DNA of 49,549 bases from Bacteroidota bacterium (GTDB lineage Bacteria > Bacteroidota > Bacteroidia > Cytophagales > Microscillaceae): NCBI GenBank assembly GCA_004292795.1, contig RDXI01000026.1:1-49549 (forward strand). Reading direction: 5' to 3'. Both the position numbers and the translations under genes were made by a program. This document shows positions 3,934 through 47,734 of the stretch, one piece after another. How positions within the stretch are numbered: position 1 is the first letter of the stretch; each line of letters opens with the position of its first letter. Under the pieces are notes generated by a model. It was not told the DNA's origin. It searched no databases and saw nothing but the letters and a program-made list of their open reading frames with translations.

Positions 3934-4032
3934 CACGCACAGGGTAGGCAAGACAAGTCGCGGTAGTTCGCCTTTGGCGTAGCGGTCATAGACCGCAATG
4001 CCAAAGCATTGAAGTTGTAAACTTCAATGAAC
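3934..4032. repeat. 99-bp direct repeat, copy 1
   Basis: This copy matches 4831-4929 at an exact offset of 897 bases with about six mismatches. It contains GCGGTC-ATA-GACCGC and a hairpin CATTGAAGTT-GTA-AACTTCAATG, plus one copy of GTAGGCAAG. The pair flanks about 800 bp carrying two divergent small genes. Confidence 0.88.
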
Positions 4033-4830: not shown

Positions 4831-4929
4831 CACACACAGGGTAGGCAAGACAAGTCGCGGTAGTTCGCCTTTGGCGTAGCGGTCATAGACCGCAATACCC
4901 AAGCATTGAAATTACAAACTTCAATGAAC
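4831..4929. repeat. 99-bp direct repeat, copy 2
   Basis: Partner of 3934-4032. The GCGGTC-ATA-GACCGC element is identical, while the second hairpin is decayed (CATTGAAATTACAAACTTCAATG keeps only seven pairs). The copy ends five bases before the stop codon of the gene at 4934-5485. Confidence 0.88.
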
Positions 4930-19574: not shown

Positions 19575-19883
19575 TCATGGTTGTGCTTGTGGCAAGATTA
19601 TTTCCTCGACCAAAAAAACAGGGCGTTTGCGCGAAGCGTCCAAAGTGCGCCAAAGATATTCGGCTATGATGGTCGTTTGCGCAAAACCCATTGTCAAGAT
19701 TTGCAAGAAAATAGACGAATTTGCCTCTATGTTTTCGTTTGTGCAACCATACAAATTGACGAATTTAAATATTTTCACGTCCTCGCCTACCTGCTCATTG
19801 TGGAACGATTGGCGGTCATTTTCTATGTCCAATGTTTTCACAACACGGTTTTTGGTTTTTTCTGTAGGTGTTTGATTTATCAA
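19575..19883 (-). pseudogene. Mosaic relic: acyltransferase N-terminus joined to two pieces of a GT2 glycosyltransferase
   Basis: The 102-codon open frame is a patchwork. Residues 19-47 (LDIENDRQSFHNEQVGEDVK...FVNLYGC) match the N-terminus of the hexapeptide acyltransferase at 37983. Residues 51-71 (NIEANSSIFLQILTMGFAQT) match the inside of the GT2 at 40314, and residues 73-95 (IAEYLWRTLDASRKRPVFL) match its C-terminus. Two deletions, about 2.7 kb and about 0.27 kb in the modern gene order, would produce it and have kept the frame. It is a scar of an earlier island like that at 36.6-47.2 kb. It lies just downstream of the DUF4266 gene on the same strand. Whether it is expressed is unknown. 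Confidence 0.85.
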
Positions 19884-19889
19884 ATACTG

Positions 19890-20099
19890 TTAATTACACC
19901 CGCAACCTCCGCTTGATTTGGGTGTTCCTGCGGGAGTCGCGCCTTGCCTGATGGAGTGAATGTATTGCGTGTATTGTTTGCCCGCATCTGCGCCCATTTG
20001 CATTTCGCTGTCGTTGATGTATTGGCGTTGATAGGGTTTTACGGCAGTGCAAGCCCCCAAACACGAGGCTATCAACACGCTATAGAGGCACTTTTTCAT
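19890..20099 (-). CDS. DUF4266 domain small lipoprotein
   Basis: This 69-residue protein starts MKKCLYSVLIASCLGACTAV, a lipoprotein signal with the lipobox Cys near residue 17. It ends in the Gly/Cys-rich GGCGCN. The central VKPYQRQYINDSEMQMG is the hallmark of the DUF4266 family. Relatives are usually encoded with a thioredoxin-like protein, an ApbE FMN transferase and a DUF3570 outer-membrane protein. Here the first two are present and overlap, but DUF3570 is absent and the mosaic relic follows instead. ATG 20099 overlaps the ApbE gene by 20 bases; the longer frame from 20138 has no sensible signal sequence. Confidence 0.88.
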   Translation of the reverse strand: MKKCLYSVLIASCLGACTAVKPYQRQYINDSEMQMGADAGKQYTQYIHSIRQGATPAGTPKSSGGCGCN

Positions 20100-21015
20100 A
20101 CTTGATTTTTTGGGAAAAATGGATTTGGTCGTTTTCATCTATAATAATGCAATGCGTTTGCGGTAATTGATTGACAAAGTGCATACCAAGTTGCACGCCT
20201 TTCACATATACAGCCGTAGCCAACGCATCGGATAGTTCTGCACTTGGCGAAAACACCGAAACGCTTTTGATGCCTGTAATAGGCAAGCCATTATGCGGGT
20301 TCAGGTTGTGCGAATATCGTTTTCCTTGCCAAACAAAATGCTGTTCATAATCGCCTGATGTTGCCACCGCGCTATTTTCCAATGGCACATACAACAAGGC
20401 TTCGGCAGGGTTTTGTGGGTTCGCAATGGCAACTTTCCACGCGGTTTCGTCTGCATTTTTGCCCCACACATTCAAATCTCCGCTTGCATTCACAAAACCC
20501 GCTTGCACGCCTAAGCGTTGCCAAACTTGCTTTACTTTGTCCGAAGCATAGCCCTTGCCTACCGCCGCCAAACTTATGCGAGTCTGTGGGTGGACAAATT
20601 GTATGGTTTGATGCGTAGCAGAAAGTTCTATTTTCTGAAAACCTACCGCTTGAAGTGTTGCTTTTAACCTTGCCTGCGAGGGCATAGCAAAAGCCTGATT
20701 TTTGAATTGATACAACGCCTTCAAGGGTTTGGTCGTGATGTCAAAATCGCCTTCGGTAAGTTCGGAAAGGTGCAAACAACGTTGCAACAATTCAAAACAC
20801 TCCTCTTGCAACGCTACAGGTTGTTCGTAAGCCTTTTGATTGATGAGCGAAAGGGCAGAAGTAGGCAAGAATTCCGAAAACAATGCCTCGATGCGTTGTA
20901 TTTCTGCTATGCCTATTTCGAGCAAATCTGCACCTTGCCTTTCCTGCTCGGCTACCACGCCCAACGTAAAAGCAGAACCCATTAACTTTTGTTGGGTTTG
21001 AAACAAGCGGTTCAT
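20080..21015 (-). CDS. apbE: FAD:protein FMN transferase (ApbE family)
   Basis: This 311-residue enzyme transfers FMN from FAD onto Thr/Ser of target flavoproteins. Characteristic stretches are ISLAAVGKGYASDKV, NASGDLNVWG, TSGDYEQHFVWQGKRYSHNLNPHNG and LSDALATAVYVKG, the last carrying metal-binding Asp and Thr. The usual HIIDPxTG loop reads HNLNPHNG, an unusual variant. No signal peptide is visible, although many relatives are periplasmic. It overlaps the thioredoxin gene by four bases (ATGA) and the DUF4266 gene by 20, so the three form one tightly coupled operon. No obvious FMN-accepting protein is nearby. Confidence 0.92.
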   Translation of the reverse strand: MNRLFQTQQKLMGSAFTLGVVAEQERQGADLLEIGIAEIQRIEALFSEFLPTSALSLINQKAYEQPVALQEECFELLQRCLHLSELTEGDFDITTKPLKALYQFKNQAFAMPSQARLKATLQAVGFQKIELSATHQTIQFVHPQTRISLAAVGKGYASDKVKQVWQRLGVQAGFVNASGDLNVWGKNADETAWKVAIANPQNPAEALLYVPLENSAVATSGDYEQHFVWQGKRYSHNLNPHNGLPITGIKSVSVFSPSAELSDALATAVYVKGVQLGMHFVNQLPQTHCIIIDENDQIHFSQKIKYEKVPL

Positions 21016-21410
21016 TTGAGTTGCGTCAAGGTGTTTTGAAGCATTTGGGTAAACTCGCCTACAGACTCGTTTTGGTAGGCAAGGCGCGTATAGGCAAGCC
21101 CTTCTATTTTTTCTAACACAAGGGTAGGATACACGCCCTCAAACGCAAATTTTTCCGCGATTTTCGCATTGATTTCGCGCTGTTCTTTCGATAGTTTTTT
21201 CCTTTGCGGAAAGTCCACCATGACCAATTCTATTTGTTGCGAAAGCAAAAAATCTTGAAAAGTGGGCTGAGTCAAAACATTTTTATCCAATCGTTTGCAG
21301 TTCGTACACCAATCTGAACCCTCAAACACATACAGTTTGTAGCGGGTAGGCAAGGCGGGTGTAGGCGCGTGCAACAGCACGACTAACAAAAGGCTTGCGA
21401 GTAGTTTCAT
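21012..21410 (-). CDS. Exported thioredoxin-fold protein
   Basis: This 132-residue protein has a signal peptide (MKLLASLLLVVLLHAPTPA) and a thioredoxin-like domain. Its redox motif is WC35TNC38KRL and its cis-proline lies in VYPTLVL. The GSDWCTNCKRLDKNV start is typical of the DUF899/thioredoxin_7-like periplasmic reductases found beside ApbE and DUF4266. It is the first gene of the operon and probably serves the other two in the periplasm, for example by reducing Cys residues; that role is inferred from context. Confidence 0.9.
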   Translation of the reverse strand: MKLLASLLLVVLLHAPTPALPTRYKLYVFEGSDWCTNCKRLDKNVLTQPTFQDFLLSQQIELVMVDFPQRKKLSKEQREINAKIAEKFAFEGVYPTLVLEKIEGLAYTRLAYQNESVGEFTQMLQNTLTQLK

Positions 21411-22059: not shown

Positions 22060-22205
22060 AGCCCCAGCGGGGCGTAATCTTTGTAGAAATATATTATTCA
22101 GTAATCGAGAAAGCCCCAGCGGGGCGATATCTTGAAGATGTCGCCCCGCTGGGGCTTCTATGTTGGGCTATTGTTGGCTACAAAGATGTCGCCCCGCTGG
22201 GGCTA
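22060..22205. repeat. Cluster of four AGCCCCAGCGGGGC hairpin repeats
   Basis: Copies lie at 22060-22074 and 22112-22127 (forward) and at 22141-22157 and 22189-22205 (reverse). Each is a short palindrome (GCCCC-AGC-GGGGC), and opposite copies can also pair with each other. The outer pair extends through CTTTGTAG / CTACAAAG. The last copy provides the TAG stop codon of the peptidase gene at 22203-23003. Confidence 0.92.
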
Positions 22206-23003
22206 ATGCGTATAATAGGCGTGTTGCAAGTTGAAAATACCTTGCTCGTCGAGGGCATCTATGCGCACAGTGTCTAAGGCGTGTGCAATAGCTAATGTCT
22301 TGCCTGTAGGCAAGGACGTATCGAAGGCAAGAGCATCTTTTGCGTTCAAGACCATACCCACATGAATTACGCGCCCATCGCGTTGAAAAAAAGCCAAATC
22401 GCCTGTAGTTGCCTCTGCCAAAGGGCGAGCAATGCCTTGCATGGCTTGTTGATAAGCGTCCCTATCAAGGCGTATGCCTACAGCTTTGTAAAGATTTTGG
22501 GTAAAACCCGAACAATCAATGCCTAAAGGCGTTCTTCCGCCCCACAAGTAAGGCGCGTTCAGATACGCCACAATGCCTTGTAGCCACGTTGTTTTGGGAT
22601 TAGTAGGCTTGCCTACTTGGGCTTTCGTGAGGCAAACCGCATTTTGTTTGTCCAAATCAAGCAATTTTTTATCCCAAAAAGGCAAGGTAGCACTGTAGGG
22701 AATGAGCGTTGGGTGGCGTTGTGTTTGCAAAGTAGCCTTGCCTATAGGTTCAGTCATCACGGCATGAACGCCCAACCGATAGCGCACAAAATAGGCTTCG
22801 CTAATAGTATAATGCGACAAGGCACTTATCCAGCCTTTGTAGCCGTCCCATTCGCTTTCTATGTAGAGCCACTTGCCGTTTTCGTGCAGGCGCAACGCTG
22901 TATAAAGTTCGCCAAAAAGCAACTGATTGCAAAGCTCGCTTTTATCGCTTGGCTCGGTGCGCATACTTAGCGCGGACAGGGTACAAATACCAAAAGAGTG
23001 CAT
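22203..23003 (-). CDS. C40 family (NlpC/P60) peptidase with SH3-like N-terminal domains
   Basis: This 266-residue protein resembles gamma-D-glutamyl-L-diamino-acid endopeptidases of the YkfC / dipeptidyl-peptidase VI type, which trim peptidoglycan peptides. Two SH3-like modules fill residues 1-120 (SALSMRTEPSDKSEL..., WDGYKGWISAL). The catalytic domain has C164 in GIDCSGF, H214 in VIHVGMVL and a third polar residue H241 in IAHALDTVRID. No signal peptide is seen, which fits recycling of imported muropeptides in the cytoplasm. The stop codon lies inside a hairpin repeat. Confidence 0.9.
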   Translation of the reverse strand: MHSFGICTLSALSMRTEPSDKSELCNQLLFGELYTALRLHENGKWLYIESEWDGYKGWISALSHYTISEAYFVRYRLGVHAVMTEPIGKATLQTQRHPTLIPYSATLPFWDKKLLDLDKQNAVCLTKAQVGKPTNPKTTWLQGIVAYLNAPYLWGGRTPLGIDCSGFTQNLYKAVGIRLDRDAYQQAMQGIARPLAEATTGDLAFFQRDGRVIHVGMVLNAKDALAFDTSLPTGKTLAIAHALDTVRIDALDEQGIFNLQHAYYTH

Positions 23004-36419: not shown

Positions 36420-36449
36420 CGTACAAAACATTCTTTGCGCAAATATTGT

Positions 36450-36626
36450 ATGAAAATTCCCGTTGCAAAACCTTACTTAGATGCGGAAGACGCGCAAAGT
36501 GCTTATGACGTAATCCTCACGGGTTGGGTTACACAAGGCGCGAAGGTGCAAGCCTTCGAAGAAAATTTTGCGCAATATGTGGGCGCAAAGTACGCTGTAG
36601 CGGTTTCGAGTTGTACGAAGTCCTAA
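36450..36626 (+). pseudogene. N-terminal remnant of a DegT/DnrJ aminotransferase
   Basis: The 58-codon frame reads MKIPVAKPYLDAEDAQSAYD...GAKYAVAVSSCTKS and is about 85 percent identical to residues 1-56 of the intact enzyme at 44574. Homology stops near 36618, just after SCT, and the frame closes eight bases later. The matching C-terminal part of a second such gene is found at 47210-47734, on the other side of the polysaccharide island. The codon use is that of the backbone rather than of the island. Confidence 0.9.
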
Positions 36627-37947: not shown

Positions 37948-37982
37948 TTTTAAACTTGAACCCTTTGCAAGAGGGGAATGAT

Positions 37983-38492
37983 ATGGAAATCTTAACTGTA
38001 GAAAACGAGCGTCAATCACTCAACAATGTACGTGTAGGCGATGGCGTAAAAATATTCAAATTTGTGAATGCCTATGGTTGTGAGATTGGCGATGGCTCTA
38101 AAATAGGATCTTTTGTCGAAATCCAAAAAGGTGTTACAATAGGTAAGAATTGTAAAATCTCCTCACATACGTTTGTCTGTGAAGGTGTTACGATAGAAGA
38201 TGGTGTTTTCGTAGGACACAATGTTTCGTTTATAAACGATATGTTCCCACGTGCCGTGAATGAAGATGGTAGTCTACAGACAGAAGCCGATTGGAAAATC
38301 GTAAATACTGTAGTAGAAGAACGCGCTTCTATAGGCACAGGTGCAACTATTTTGGGCGGTGTGCGTATAGGCAAGAACGCTATTGTGGGTGCTGGCTCAG
38401 TGGTTACTAAAGATGTTCCCACTAATGCTATAGTAGCAGGCAATCCCGCTAAAATTATTCGTTATATAGCCCCCAACCCCAAAGGGGAGTAA
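37983..38492 (+). CDS. Hexapeptide-repeat N-acetyltransferase, WlbB/WbpD-like
   Basis: This 169-residue left-handed beta-helix acyltransferase has many hexapeptide turns (IGDGSKIGSFVEIQKGVTIG, ILGGVRIGKNAIVGAGSVVT) and the NxxFxND-type loop HNVSFINDMFPRA. It would acetylate the 3-amino group made by the downstream aminotransferase. ATG 37983 is preferred over an in-frame TTG at 37956. The last residues APNPKGE are encoded by a hairpin repeat (38469-38487), which seems to have replaced or extended the natural C-terminus. A fragment of a homologue forms part of the relic at 19575-19883. Confidence 0.9.
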   Translation: MEILTVENERQSLNNVRVGDGVKIFKFVNAYGCEIGDGSKIGSFVEIQKGVTIGKNCKISSHTFVCEGVTIEDGVFVGHNVSFINDMFPRAVNEDGSLQTEADWKIVNTVVEERASIGTGATILGGVRIGKNAIVGAGSVVTKDVPTNAIVAGNPAKIIRYIAPNPKGE

Positions 38493-38530
38493 TTTTTATT
38501 AAAACTATGCCCCCCTTTGGGGTTGGGGGC
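38469..38530. repeat. Hairpin of GCCCCCAACCCCAAAGGGG arms across a gene end
   Basis: A perfect 19-bp stem (38469-38487 with 38512-38530) encloses 24 bases that include the stop codon of the acyltransferase. TTTT follows on the plus strand, so partial termination within the operon is possible. Confidence 0.9.
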
Positions 38531-38543
38531 TTTTCAAATCCTT

Positions 38544-39638
38544 ATGAACATTCCCTGTCTTGACCTTAAAAAACAATATACTCAAATAAAACAAGAAGTT
38601 TTAGCTCGATTTGAGCAGGTTTGCGAAGATACCGCCTTTTCAGGAGGCAAGTATGTAGAACAATTTGAGAAAAATTTTGCAACCTATTGTGATACAAAAT
38701 ATGCCATAGGGGTAGATAATGGTACATCTGCCTTGCATTTGGCTATGCTTGCGCTTGGCATCAAAGAAGGCGATGAAGTTATCTTGCCTGCCAATACCTT
38801 CATAGCTACAGCATGGGGTGTGAGCTATTGTAATGCTACTCCCGTTTTTGTTGATTGTACTTCAGACACTTGGGAAATAGATGCTTCAAAAATTGAAGCG
38901 AAAATTACGCCTAAGACTAAAGCTATAGCAGGAGTTCATTTATACGGACAGCCTTTTGATATTGACGCAGTAAGGGCTATTGCCCAAAAACATAACCTGT
39001 TTTTGATTGAAGATGCGGCGCAAGCGCATGGCGCACATTACAAAGGCAAACGTGTGGGTGGTTTTGGCGAAATGGCGTGCTTTAGTTTTTACCCAGGCAA
39101 GAACTTAGGTGCTTATGGAGAAGCGGGTGGACTTACTACCAATAACGAAAGTTATGTAAAACATATCCACAGTTTGCGTAGTCATGGCTCTACAGTGCGT
39201 TATTACCATGATGAAATAGGCTACAATATGCGTATGGGCGGACTCGAAGCGGTAAGCCTTGATGTAAAACTTGCCTACCTTGACGGCTGGAACAGTCGCA
39301 GGAAAGAAGTTGCAAAAATGTATCAAAAGGGCATTACTAACCCCAAAATAAAGATGCAGGCACAACCCGAATTCGCTGACTCGGTCTATCATTTGTTTGT
39401 GATTACTACAGAAGACCGCGATGGTTTGATGAAATACCTGAATGAAAATCAAATTTCTCCAGGCTTGCATTATCCTGTGCCTTGTCATTTGCAAAAGGCT
39501 TACTTACATTTGGGACACAAAGTAGGTGATTTCCCCAACGCCGAATATTTGGCTTCGCATTGCCTTTCCTTGCCTATGTTTGCCGAACTAAGCAATGAGG
39601 AAGTAGAGAAAGTAATAACGGTTTTGAATAGTTATTAG
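38544..39638 (+). CDS. DegT/DnrJ/EryC1 aminotransferase, WlbC/WbpE-like
   Basis: This 364-residue PLP enzyme has the Schiff-base lysine K186 in FSFYPGKNLGAYGEAG and the PLP-binding IEDAAQAHGA (D157). The start NIPCLDLKKQYTQIK and the ending HYPVPCHLQKAYLHLG are typical of sugar 3-aminotransferases such as WlbC, WbpE, FdtB and QdtB. With the oxidoreductase and acetyltransferase before it, it probably installs a 3-amino group on a UDP-sugar. ATG 38544 lies 14 bases after the hairpin; the in-frame TTG at 38517 lies within it and is rejected. Confidence 0.92.
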   Translation: MNIPCLDLKKQYTQIKQEVLARFEQVCEDTAFSGGKYVEQFEKNFATYCDTKYAIGVDNGTSALHLAMLALGIKEGDEVILPANTFIATAWGVSYCNATPVFVDCTSDTWEIDASKIEAKITPKTKAIAGVHLYGQPFDIDAVRAIAQKHNLFLIEDAAQAHGAHYKGKRVGGFGEMACFSFYPGKNLGAYGEAGGLTTNNESYVKHIHSLRSHGSTVRYYHDEIGYNMRMGGLEAVSLDVKLAYLDGWNSRRKEVAKMYQKGITNPKIKMQAQPEFADSVYHLFVITTEDRDGLMKYLNENQISPGLHYPVPCHLQKAYLHLGHKVGDFPNAEYLASHCLSLPMFAELSNEEVEKVITVLNSY

Positions 39639-39681
39639 GATTTGGTTTTTGGAGTTCATGTCTTCGTTTGCTACTACAATT

Positions 39682-40299
39682 ATGAAAAAAAAACTTATCA
39701 TTTTTCCCTTCAACGGCAATGGTTTAGAAGCCTTTGATTGTTTGACTGATGAATTTGATTTTATAGGATATGCAGATGACACACCCGAAAAACAAAAAAA
39801 ATACGAGCATTTTGAGGTTTTTTCACGCGAAATCATAACCCAATATCCTGAAGCAAAGATTTTAGCCGTCTTGGGTAGCCCTGCCAATCATCGATATCGC
39901 CATGAAATTATAGGTTCTTTACAAATACCTGAAAGCCGTTTTGCTACAATCGTTCACCCTAAAGCGTCTGTAGCAAAATTAGCCAAAATTGGCTATAACA
40001 CCTTGGTTATGGCAGGTGTAGTGATTACAAGCAATGCGACTATCGGCAATCACATTTGCATCTTGCCTAATACAGTGATACACCATGATGTTACAATAGG
40101 CGATTATAGCCTGTTAGGTAGCAACATCACTTTAGCAGGAAGCGTACAAATAGGCGAAAATTGTTATGTGGGAAGTGGCACAAGTATTATTCAAAATACA
40201 ACCATTGGCAAATTTTCTTTGATTGGTATGGGTTCAAATGTACTGAAAAATGTGCCTGAAAATAGCAAAGTAGTTGGCAATCCTGCCCGACTAATTTGA
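39682..40299 (+). CDS. Sugar O/N-acyltransferase, PglD/NeuD-like
   Basis: This 205-residue protein has an N-terminal PglD-type alpha/beta domain (KKLIIFPFNGNGLEAFDCL, FIGYADDTPEKQ) followed by left-handed beta-helix turns (TIGNHICILPNTVIHHDVTI, LLGSNITLAGSVQIGENCYV). The end is VPENSKVVGNPARLI. Such enzymes acetylate amino sugars or sialic-acid-like sugars. The start could also be ATG 39658, giving eight more residues; 39682 gives the normal first strand. It lies in the middle of the island operon. Confidence 0.9.
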   Translation: MKKKLIIFPFNGNGLEAFDCLTDEFDFIGYADDTPEKQKKYEHFEVFSREIITQYPEAKILAVLGSPANHRYRHEIIGSLQIPESRFATIVHPKASVAKLAKIGYNTLVMAGVVITSNATIGNHICILPNTVIHHDVTIGDYSLLGSNITLAGSVQIGENCYVGSGTSIIQNTTIGKFSLIGMGSNVLKNVPENSKVVGNPARLI

Positions 40300-40313
40300 C
40301 AAAACAAATATTT

Positions 40314-41246
40314 ATGTATAATTTATCTGTTATTATTCCTTTCTTAAACGAATCTGGTAATATAGAACGTCTTACTACTGAACTTGATACTTTTTTTTCC
40401 AAAAAAATGGATTTGAAAGTTGAAGTAATTTTTGTAGATGATGGCTCTACAGATAACTCCCTTGAGTTACTTCAGCAGGCAAGATACACCCATTATACAC
40501 CCAAAGTCATCAAGCTTTCGAAAAATTATGGTTCACACGCTGCCCTTCGCGCAGGTATTTTGCACGCAGAAGGGGCGTACATATCTTTTATGTATGCCGA
40601 TTTGCAGGATCCGCTTGAACTTATAACACAAATGTATGCACTTGCACAAGAAAGACACGAAATAGTATGGGCAGTACGCAAAACTACCCAATCGGGTTTC
40701 TCTGAAAGGCTGTTTTCGCAAACATACAGCTACTTGATGAAAAAATATGCTATCAAAAACTTCCCTGCAAAGGGCTTTGATATCGTGATGTTTGGGCAAA
40801 AGGTAAGGCGCGAATTGAACCAAAATATAGAACTAAACTCGTCCATCTTCCTGCAAATTTTGACAATGGGCTTTCAACAAACTACTATAGAGTATGATAA
40901 GCAGGCAAGACAAGCGGGTAAGTCAAAATGGACTTTTAGCAAAAAAGTAAAACTTTTTGTAGATTCTTTCATAGCTTTCTCCTTCGCGCCTATTCGTTTT
41001 GTTACGTTTGTAGGTATTTTATTATTTATTTTGGGTAGCTTATATGGGGCTTACATAGTAGGCAGAAAGTTGATTTACAATGACTTAGAACAAGGTTGGG
41101 CTTCATTGATAGCCATTTTGATGGTGGGTTTTGGTATTACTAATATTTCATTGGGTATTATAGCCGAATATTTGTGGCGTACTTTAGATGCTTCGCGCAA
41201 ACGACCTCTTTTTATTATTGATGACATTATAAGCCCCAAAAATTAA
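40314..41246 (+). CDS. Family 2 glycosyltransferase, polyprenyl-phosphate sugar synthase type (GtrB/DPM-like)
   Basis: This 310-residue membrane-bound enzyme has the GT2 nucleotide-binding VIFVDDGSTDNS, the donor-site Asp in MYADLQDPLEL, a QILTMGFQQTTIEY strand and two C-terminal membrane helices (about residues 225-290). Relatives move a sugar from a nucleotide to undecaprenyl phosphate for later use by GT-C enzymes, of which two candidates follow. The start ATG 40314 precedes the conserved YNLSVIIPFLNE. Internal and C-terminal pieces of a homologue are found in the relic at 19575-19883. Confidence 0.92.
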   Translation: MYNLSVIIPFLNESGNIERLTTELDTFFSKKMDLKVEVIFVDDGSTDNSLELLQQARYTHYTPKVIKLSKNYGSHAALRAGILHAEGAYISFMYADLQDPLELITQMYALAQERHEIVWAVRKTTQSGFSERLFSQTYSYLMKKYAIKNFPAKGFDIVMFGQKVRRELNQNIELNSSIFLQILTMGFQQTTIEYDKQARQAGKSKWTFSKKVKLFVDSFIAFSFAPIRFVTFVGILLFILGSLYGAYIVGRKLIYNDLEQGWASLIAILMVGFGITNISLGIIAEYLWRTLDASRKRPLFIIDDIISPKN

Positions 41247-44561: not shown

Positions 44562-44573
44562 AAATTATACGAT

Positions 44574-45722
44574 ATGAAAATTCCAGTTGCAAAACCCTAC
44601 TTAGACGCACAAGATGCGCAAAATGCCTACGATACCATTCTCACAGGCTGGGTAACACAAGGTCCCAAAGTGCAAGAGTTTGAGGAAAAATTTGCGCAAT
44701 ATACAGGCGCGAAATATGCTGTAGCTGTTTCAAACTGTACTACTGCCTTGCATTTGGCTATGATAGTCGCAGGGGTAGGCGAGGGCGATGAAGTTATCTG
44801 CCCTTCTATGTCTTATATTGCTACAGCGAATTGTATTCGCTATGTGGGTGCGAAAGTCGTATTGGCTGAAGTAAATCCTGAAACGTATAATATTGATTTA
44901 CAAGACGTTATAAAACGTATCACACCCAAAACAAAGGCAATTTTAATCGTACATCAAATAGGCTTGCCTGCCGACATTGACGCATTTGCTTCTTTGTGTA
45001 AAGAAAAAGGAATAACTTTGATAGAAGATGCAGCATGTGCCGCAGGTTCTGCCTACAAGGGAGGCAAGATTGGCTCACATTCCGATTTGGTTTGCTTTTC
45101 GTTTCACCCTCGCAAAGTCATTACTACAGGTGATGGAGGTATGATAACGACCTCGCGTCAAGAATATGCAGACCGCCTGAAACTTTTGCGCCAACATGGA
45201 ATGGCTATCAACGACCGAGTGCGCCACGAATCTACTACTGTAGTACTTACTGACCACTTGGAATTAGGCTACAATTACAGAATGACTGATATCCAAGCGG
45301 CTGTAGGCATCAAGCAATTAGAAAAATTGGATTGGATAATAGCGGAAAGGCGCAAAATTGCCTTGCAATATCATCAAGCTTTTGCCGATATAACCACTAT
45401 TCGCTTGCCTATAGAGCAGGAAGGCTATTTTTCCAATTACCAATCGTATTCAGTTTACCTAAAACCTGAATTTCCAATTAACCGAGATGAATTGATGCAG
45501 AAAATGCTTGACGAAGGCATTTCTACGCGTAGTGGTGTAATGACTACACACCGCGAAACTGCCTACAGAGCATATTGTGCGGGTATTATTTTGCCTGTTT
45601 CTGAAGATGCTTGTGATAGAAGTATTATTTTGCCACTTTATGTACCTATGACTCAAGAAGAAATAAATTTTGTCATTGAAACCTTCAAAAAAATATGCTT
45701 ACCAAAAAACGACATTTTATAG
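44574..45722 (+). CDS. DegT/DnrJ/EryC1 aminotransferase, perosamine-synthase/ArnB-like
   Basis: This 382-residue PLP enzyme has the Schiff-base lysine K181 in CFSFHPRKVITTGDGGM and the PLP-binding Asp in IEDAACAAGSAY (D152). The start MKIPVAKPYLDAQDAQNAYD and the HETAY-like end are typical of sugar 4-aminotransferases (RfbE/ArnB/PseC group). It is the intact homologue of the two flanking pseudogene fragments at 36450 and 47210. It overlaps the next gene by 28 bases. Confidence 0.92.
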   Translation: MKIPVAKPYLDAQDAQNAYDTILTGWVTQGPKVQEFEEKFAQYTGAKYAVAVSNCTTALHLAMIVAGVGEGDEVICPSMSYIATANCIRYVGAKVVLAEVNPETYNIDLQDVIKRITPKTKAILIVHQIGLPADIDAFASLCKEKGITLIEDAACAAGSAYKGGKIGSHSDLVCFSFHPRKVITTGDGGMITTSRQEYADRLKLLRQHGMAINDRVRHESTTVVLTDHLELGYNYRMTDIQAAVGIKQLEKLDWIIAERRKIALQYHQAFADITTIRLPIEQEGYFSNYQSYSVYLKPEFPINRDELMQKMLDEGISTRSGVMTTHRETAYRAYCAGIILPVSEDACDRSIILPLYVPMTQEEINFVIETFKKICLPKNDIL

Positions 45723-47209: not shown

Positions 47210-47734
47210 GAAATAACTACTTCGCGGAACGGCTGAAACTTTTGCGCCAACACGGAATGGCTATCAATGACCGAGTGCGACACGAGGCAAGCCAAGTGTT
47301 GATAACTGACCATGTGGAATTGGGCTACAATTATCGAATGACATACATTCAGGCATCTGTGGGCATCAAACAATTAGCCAAATTGGATTGGATAGTGCAG
47401 GCAAGGCGCGACATAGCCCAACAATATCACGAAGCCTTTGCCGATGTGCCTTTCCTACGCTTGCCTACCAAACCCGAAGGCTATCACACGAATTGGCAGT
47501 CGTACATGGTGTATATCTTGCCTACTTGCCCCATAAACCGCAACGACCTGATGCAAAAGTTGTTAGATGAAGGCGTATCAACGCGAAACGGCTTATAGGG
47601 AATATTGCGCGGAGGTGTCCTTGCCTACCTCCGAAGATGTGTGCGACAGAAGTATCATCTTGCCTTTGTACGCGCAAATGACACAAGTAGAAATAGATTT
47701 TATGATACAACGCCTCAAGGCTTGTTTTGCATAG
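47210..47734 (+). pseudogene. C-terminal remnant of a DegT/DnrJ aminotransferase, frameshifted
   Basis: From ITTSR at 47210 the sequence matches residues 191-382 of the enzyme at 44574 (RLKLLRQHGMAINDRVRH, GYNYRMTYIQASVGIKQLAK). Relative to that gene there are two small deletions, about 13 bases near 47224 and 26 bases near 47585. The second breaks the frame after VSTRNGL; the reading continues one frame over as ETAYREYCAEVSLPTSEDVC to TAG 47732-47734. Both deletions lie at short GCG/CGCG repeats. The fragment complements the N-terminal remnant at 36450, but residues 57-190 are missing from both. Confidence 0.9.

Follow-up and report, generated by a model that had tools for sequence, protein, structure and literature searches.

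What does the flavin transferase of a compact three-gene operon modify when its usual substrate gene is not beside it? The operon is located in a 49,549-nucleotide stretch of DNA from a Bacteroidota genome (the window; Table 1) and encodes a thioredoxin-like protein, the FAD:protein FMN transferase ApbE and a small DUF4266 lipoprotein. A first-pass annotation had described it as lacking the DUF3570 gene that usually follows DUF4266, with a sugar-gene relic in its place, and had suggested that either a rearrangement had taken place or the three genes suffice. Based on our analysis, the operon is very probably the maturation half of a thioredoxin/ApbE/DUF4266/DUF3570 (DsbD-type) flavinylation system, whose substrate gene is found in trans on contig C28 of the same genome.

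Table 1. Features of the operon, of the sugar genes and of the DUF3570 gene (positions in the window, unless another stretch is named)
Feature	Position	Strand	Remarks
Sugar-gene scar (hexapeptide acyltransferase start and two GT2 glycosyltransferase pieces)	19597-19825	minus	where DUF3570 normally sits
DUF4266 small lipoprotein	19890-20099	minus	PF14086 55 bits
apbE, FAD:protein FMN transferase	20080-21015	minus	311 aa; PF02424 245.8 bits
Thioredoxin-like gene	21012-21410	minus	132 aa; PF13098 31.7 bits, PF13899 29.2 bits (cut-off 27)
Intact polysaccharide genes resembled by the scar	37956-41246	plus	reference for the scar; outside the flavin system
Hexapeptide acyltransferase	37956-38492	plus	window's sugar cluster
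DegT aminotransferase	38517-39638	plus	window's sugar cluster
Acyltransferase	39649-40299	plus	window's sugar cluster
GT2 glycosyltransferase	40296-41246	plus	window's sugar cluster
DUF3570 gene of contig C28	9132-10397 on fetched stretch L004		gene without Pfam match on one side, ThiF-family gene on the opposite strand on the other

The coordinates confirm that the three genes are tightly coupled. The thioredoxin and apbE genes overlap by 4 bases (ATGA), and apbE and DUF4266 by 20 bases when the second methionine of DUF4266, which opens a lipoprotein-like signal, is taken as its start. From the first ATG, at 20138, where the longest reading frame starts, the overlap is 59 bases. The thioredoxin-like protein has a hydrophobic Sec-type N-terminus and a WCTNC motif. 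ApbE is a full-length match to its Pfam family with a conserved core, and it matches ApbE chains among the PDB sequences (7esa, E 6.7e-39). The DUF4266 protein ends in GGCGCN, thus in a CXC motif.

DUF3570 is indeed the usual partner of DUF4266. Among 57 relatives, DUF4266 occurs in the window's own genome (G000) and in four others (G025, G026 twice, G042 and G043), and DUF3570 adjoins it in each of the four. In a phylum sample of 395 genomes drawn from a larger group, DUF4266 is found in 113 and DUF3570 in 118, and all 113 are among the 118. This sample contains 140 DUF4266 genes, 134 of which adjoin DUF3570: for 115 the DUF3570 gene lies within 3 kb among the matches listed, always on the same strand (115/115) and downstream in 113 cases, and for a further 19 it was detected next to DUF4266 in fetched DNA by a profile of our own. 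The six genes left are those of G080, G233 and G341, at or near contig ends, and those of G248, G354 and G000. In G248, one DUF4266 gene is followed by ApbE and DsbD in DUF3570's stead. G354 keeps thioredoxin, ApbE and DUF4266 together, with DUF3570 41 kb off on the opposite strand. A separation of the maturation genes from DUF3570 is therefore rare.

The same holds closer to the window. A contig scan with the aligned sequences of the window ApbE and one close relative as query yielded a subfamily of 30 loci, which we take to be all from Bacteroidota. ApbE, DUF4266 and DUF3570 occur in that order in every one of them, DUF4266 has the CXC end in 30/30, and thioredoxin is present in 25. All 25 thioredoxins have a WCxxC motif in which the last inner residue is never proline (for example WCVNC or WCKGC); among the other thioredoxins linked to DUF4266, many have WCGPC, WCAPC, WCIPC or WCKPC. 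Two genomes of the phylum sample, G248 and G377, have nine DUF3570 matches each, compared to two and three DUF4266 matches, respectively. If these matches are separate genes, one maturation set may serve several DUF3570 proteins in trans there.

We searched the genome of the window (4.56 Mb in 430 contigs, 82% complete) for the components of the system and for other candidate substrates. The profile search found one DUF3570 protein, on contig C28 (9486-10241; 56.1 bits, cut-off 25), a moderate family match that covers profile positions 116-380 of 427. The window genes are the single ApbE and the single DUF4266 match. The transmembrane protein DsbD is encoded outside the cluster, on contig C110 (86.5 bits, cut-off 27.1). 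The description of the operon as lacking DUF3570 thus stands for the window, where tblastn with DUF3570 proteins revealed neither gene nor remnant (best E 0.036), and fails for the genome. The first-pass annotation had named a DUF3570 elsewhere with an ApbE of its own as an outcome that would refute its reading; half of this holds, since DUF3570 lies elsewhere and no other ApbE was found. In the 20 kb around the C28 gene there is likewise no remnant of DUF4266, ApbE or thioredoxin (best E 0.011). Against PDB sequences, DUF3570 gave nothing up to E 1.

FMN_bind proteins such as NqrC and RnfG are classical ApbE substrates (PMC8238504, PMC12052999), and ApbE could serve one of these, another FMN_bind protein or a DUF2271 protein. 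We regard this as extremely unlikely. No FMN_bind match was found in this 82% complete genome by a search that was positive in 4 of 14 control genomes, and no DUF2271 match by one that was positive in 1 of 14. An Nqr or Rnf target, also raised at first annotation, is accordingly not favoured. Of the substrate classes that Meheust et al. name (FMN_bind, DUF2271 and DUF3570), DUF3570 is the only one found in the genome.

The operon and the C28 gene share their nearest relatives. The window ApbE is most similar to L188 (genome G073, Edaphocola flava), L160, L163, L161 and L162, at 56-58% identity. The C28 DUF3570 is closest to the copy of a genome of the same genus, G001 (54%), followed by L162 (51%) and by L163, L188 and L161 (46.5-48%). 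All of these last four, which are Taibaiella, Edaphocola and Saprospiraceae loci, rank within the top six for the window ApbE. The window DUF4266 and thioredoxin likewise find their best matches within the 30 subfamily loci. The parts therefore look like one lineage of the system, as far as sequence kinship can tell.

G001 itself counts against the in-trans reading. This genome is 96% complete and carries a DUF3570 with both putative flavin sites (described below), yet neither ApbE nor DUF4266 gave a match in it. Only 77 bases separate the start of its DUF3570 gene from a contig end, so the gap may come from the assembly; alternatively, DUF3570 may work without ApbE there.

The sugar-gene relic noted at first annotation is real. 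Blastn within the window matches it in three pieces to intact polysaccharide genes of the same window: 19744-19825 to 37999-38080 (63/82 bases), 19669-19739 to 40818-40888 (55/71 bases) and 19597-19670 to 41157-41230 (59/74 bases). The pieces have 77 to 80% identity and follow the order of the intact genes, and protein alignments agree. They are read through in one unbroken frame, a chimeric open reading frame of 102 aa (19575-19883). This scar has no Pfam match up to E 10 and one chance-level match to PDB sequences, a ribosomal protein (E 1.4). Searched by tblastn against plasmids it hit 12 records, several of them under glycosyltransferases. FolD, suggested by a weak NCBIfam match (18.9 bits, cut-off 486), was rejected: the same residues align with the acyltransferase of the window.

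The rearrangement that had been offered as one option probably took place. In the simplest history, a second, diverged set of sugar genes would have come to lie by DUF4266, at the former place of DUF3570, and would later have collapsed by deletion. The split thus probably arose when sugar genes settled after DUF4266 and then shrank to a scar of about 230 bases.

Could the operon-borne DUF3570 simply have been lost or misjoined during assembly? The assembly is fragmented and incomplete. Nevertheless, DUF4266 lies about 20 kb from the contig start, with 30 kb of window beyond, and it is followed by a scar traceable to the same window and then by ordinary genes. The identity of the C28 DUF3570 to the same-genus copy fits a native gene. 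On the window side, a gene located 0.8 kb away from the operon (22203-23003) has a counterpart in G001 with 72% identity, which fits a native contig; the G001 contig concerned is 6.2 kb long and has no other gene in common with the window. We consider an artefact very improbable.

The window also contains repeats. Between the Uma2 and NlpC/P60 genes, at 22061-22203, a 13-base GC-rich sequence is present four times (GCCCCAGCGGGGC twice and its reverse complement twice), and the four copies are possibly a hairpin element. Direct repeats are found at 3934-4032 and 4831-4929 (94% identity), 36449-36616 and 44573-44740 (79%), and 45168-45671 and 47224-47701 (68%).

Next, we consider where the flavin would be attached. 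The target had been called unknown, but the target class is known: the DUF3570 protein of Chlorobium luteolum is reported to be flavinylated by ApbE at two [S/T]GA[S/T] motifs, based on experiments (Meheust et al. 2021, eLife, PMC8238504). Compared with this strict published motif, the C28 DUF3570 has two sites at aligned places, both reading SSAS. They are found in DLISSASTDKIDFVVSSASSHD as tandem S-S-A-S sites 12 residues apart, and both align with the sites of operon-borne DUF3570 proteins from the order. In the DUF3570 of G026 and G043 the second site reads STPS or SSPS.

Among full-length DUF3570 proteins of the subfamily, S88-A89-S90 at site 1 and S99-S100-x-S102 at site 2 are invariant (28/28; numbering of the first sequence), and A101 is nearly so. 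This count covers 28 of the 30 loci, the truncated DUF3570 of L160 and L164 being left out. The change from glycine to serine is thus common to the subfamily. We infer that the SSAS sites of the C28 protein are modified with flavin. Among the publications consulted, we found no report of flavinylation at an SSAS variant, and the departure from the published motif counts against the in-trans reading, as does the completeness of the genome: a second ApbE or another substrate could be missing from the assembly.

These sites also bear on the proposal that the three genes suffice, with ApbE flavinylating DUF4266 or some other protein and the C28 DUF3570 being unrelated to the operon. The C28 gene and the operon are not neighbours, G001 keeps its DUF3570 without a detectable ApbE, and Meheust et al. 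(PMC8238504) report that apbE is left an orphan in 4% of genomes after DUF2271 and DUF3570 are counted. Furthermore, the window DUF4266 contains R-Q-G-A-T, which is near the [S/T]GA[S/T] motif. However, the strict motif is found in none of 72 DUF4266 proteins, and the last residue of R-[EQ]-G-A-x varies (S, T, V, L, I, M, A or N). DUF3570 accompanies DUF4266 in 113/113 genomes of the phylum sample, and the C28 copy keeps both sites. We find self-sufficiency of the three genes very unlikely and favour the DUF3570 on C28 as the substrate.

The absence of a signal peptide in the window ApbE, remarked on at first annotation, was confirmed when the open frame upstream was scanned for hydrophobicity (not with SignalP): there was no hydrophobic segment and no lipid box. 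It is a trait of the subfamily, not an oddity of this gene: at the scan threshold used, 0 of the 30 subfamily ApbEs have an export signal. Their partners do have a hydrophobic N-terminus, in 29/30 DUF3570, 28/30 DUF4266 and 25/25 thioredoxin proteins. In a set of 37 DUF4266-linked ApbEs that includes the window protein, the N-terminus is hydrophobic in 12 and not in 25; L153, for which the script detected no anchor motif, was assigned to the 12 by visual inspection. At least one locus (L188, the same as G073) belongs to both sets. The loop of the window ApbE, YSHNLNPHNG, had been called unusual and is ordinary in the subfamily, where relatives often read YSHN[IL][ND]P.

As the ApbE subfamily has no signal peptide, attachment of the flavin in the cytosol, before export, is the most likely course, though this step is less certain than the rest. 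Alternatively, ApbE could leave the cytosol by a route not recognised here, or fused to the exported thioredoxin through a frameshift, and act in the periplasm, which would be compatible with a DUF3570 target. According to a 2025 review, secretion seems to be the rule among ApbEs of bacteria and archaea, although cytosolic ones are described as well (PMC12052999). The 12 hydrophobic N-termini among the 37 and the tight overlap of the thioredoxin and apbE genes point the same way. Nonetheless, five of the 30 subfamily loci have no thioredoxin, and the frame relation is not conserved: offsets of 1, 2 and 0 occur in 16, 11 and 4 of 31 thioredoxin-ApbE pairs, which disfavours a programmed frameshift fusion. 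Action in the periplasm is in our judgement rather unlikely. Cytosolic modification of a barrel precursor would be feasible, because partners expressed without signal peptides in E. coli are reported to be still flavinylated, with DUF3570 mostly in the pellet (PMC8238504).

The predicted structure of DUF3570 is consistent with this order of events. We modelled the Edaphocola protein, not the C28 copy, from 28 sequences and obtained a beta barrel (mean pLDDT 82, pTM 0.78), almost the full length of which can be aligned with outer-membrane barrels. Among the best 50 matches listed, Z ranges from 14.9 to 20.4, and Foldseek TM-scores, normalised by query length, reach only about 0.32 to 0.47 among the best 50 listed. 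The matches include the polysaccharide secretin 4y25 (Z 19.1, rmsd 3.3, 255 aligned), BcsC (Z 18.9, rmsd 4.1, 298 aligned) and CymA (Z 18.4, rmsd 4.0, 268 aligned). Strands were counted from DSSP, with 56-62 joined to 65-72 and four strands of 3-4 residues passed over, and with an N-to-C alignment to known barrels. This count gives 16 strands with both ends periplasmic and places the sites where strand 3 ends on the outer side and in the loop after it, where residues 91-102 of the model have pLDDT below 50. By strand counting, the flavin loop thus looks to face outward, and in that case an ApbE on the periplasmic side could reach it only before the barrel is inserted. Among publications searched by title and start of abstract, we found none on a flavinylated outer-membrane barrel.

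Taken together, ApbE would take FMN from FAD and link it to two serines in the tandem SSAS sites of the C28 DUF3570, probably while the protein is still in the cytosol. DUF3570 would then be exported and become an outer-membrane beta barrel, as modelled on its relative. DsbD, encoded elsewhere, would feed the exported thioredoxin and the CXC-ending lipoprotein DUF4266, and these may pass electrons to the bound flavins or take electrons from them; electron transfer via thioredoxin, DUF4266 and DsbD to flavins has been proposed in Meheust et al. 2021 (PMC8238504). A bolder picture for the whole subfamily, which we put forward as doubtful, has FMN attached in the cytosol to the pre-export barrel protein. 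Sec would then secrete the protein, which would enter the outer membrane carrying two covalent flavins on an outward loop and form a haem-free electron path across that membrane, fed by DsbD, thioredoxin and DUF4266.

The system and its target class are already known, and the separation of the genes is in itself a modest finding. It shows that a conserved pair of sites can link an ApbE operon that looks orphaned to a substrate encoded in trans. A missing adjacent DUF3570 should consequently not be read as a new target. The point for specialists is the compartment puzzle, a signal-less ApbE subfamily set against an exported substrate. If attachment precedes export, an outer-membrane protein would receive a covalent cofactor in the cytosol, and DUF3570 would be a candidate for a haem-free conduit.

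Finally, we compared the operon with the closest known systems. Typical DsbD-type clusters combine ApbE and DUF3570 with a thioredoxin-like protein and DUF4266 (Meheust et al. 2021, PMC8238504). The system described here shares these four families, three of them in the common order, as well as the CXC end of DUF4266, the two tandem DUF3570 sites and a DsbD in the genome. It differs in that DUF3570 lies on another contig, the sites read SSAS and not [S/T]GA[S/T], ApbE has no signal peptide and DsbD is encoded outside the cluster; 316 clusters without DsbD were counted in the same study. Compared with the ApbE family (PF02424), the window protein has the full length and the conserved core but neither a lipoprotein nor a Sec signal. 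In this it resembles the cytosolic ApbE of Klebsiella pneumoniae, which flavinylates a soluble fumarate reductase (PMC12052999). The Klebsiella target is cytosolic, whereas the likely target here is an exported outer-membrane barrel.

The Edaphocola flava locus (L143/L188) differs from the window in that its DUF4266 adjoins DUF3570, it has no thioredoxin and an acyltransferase gene stands between apbE and DUF4266. This acyltransferase-3/SGNH gene (L143, 3417-5258) is a second case of a sugar-modification-type gene within this operon. The likeness extends to each of the parts in common: ApbE is 58% identical, DUF4266 50% and DUF3570 46.5%, the Edaphocola ApbE is also signal-less, and its DUF3570 carries the same SSAS/SSAS pair.
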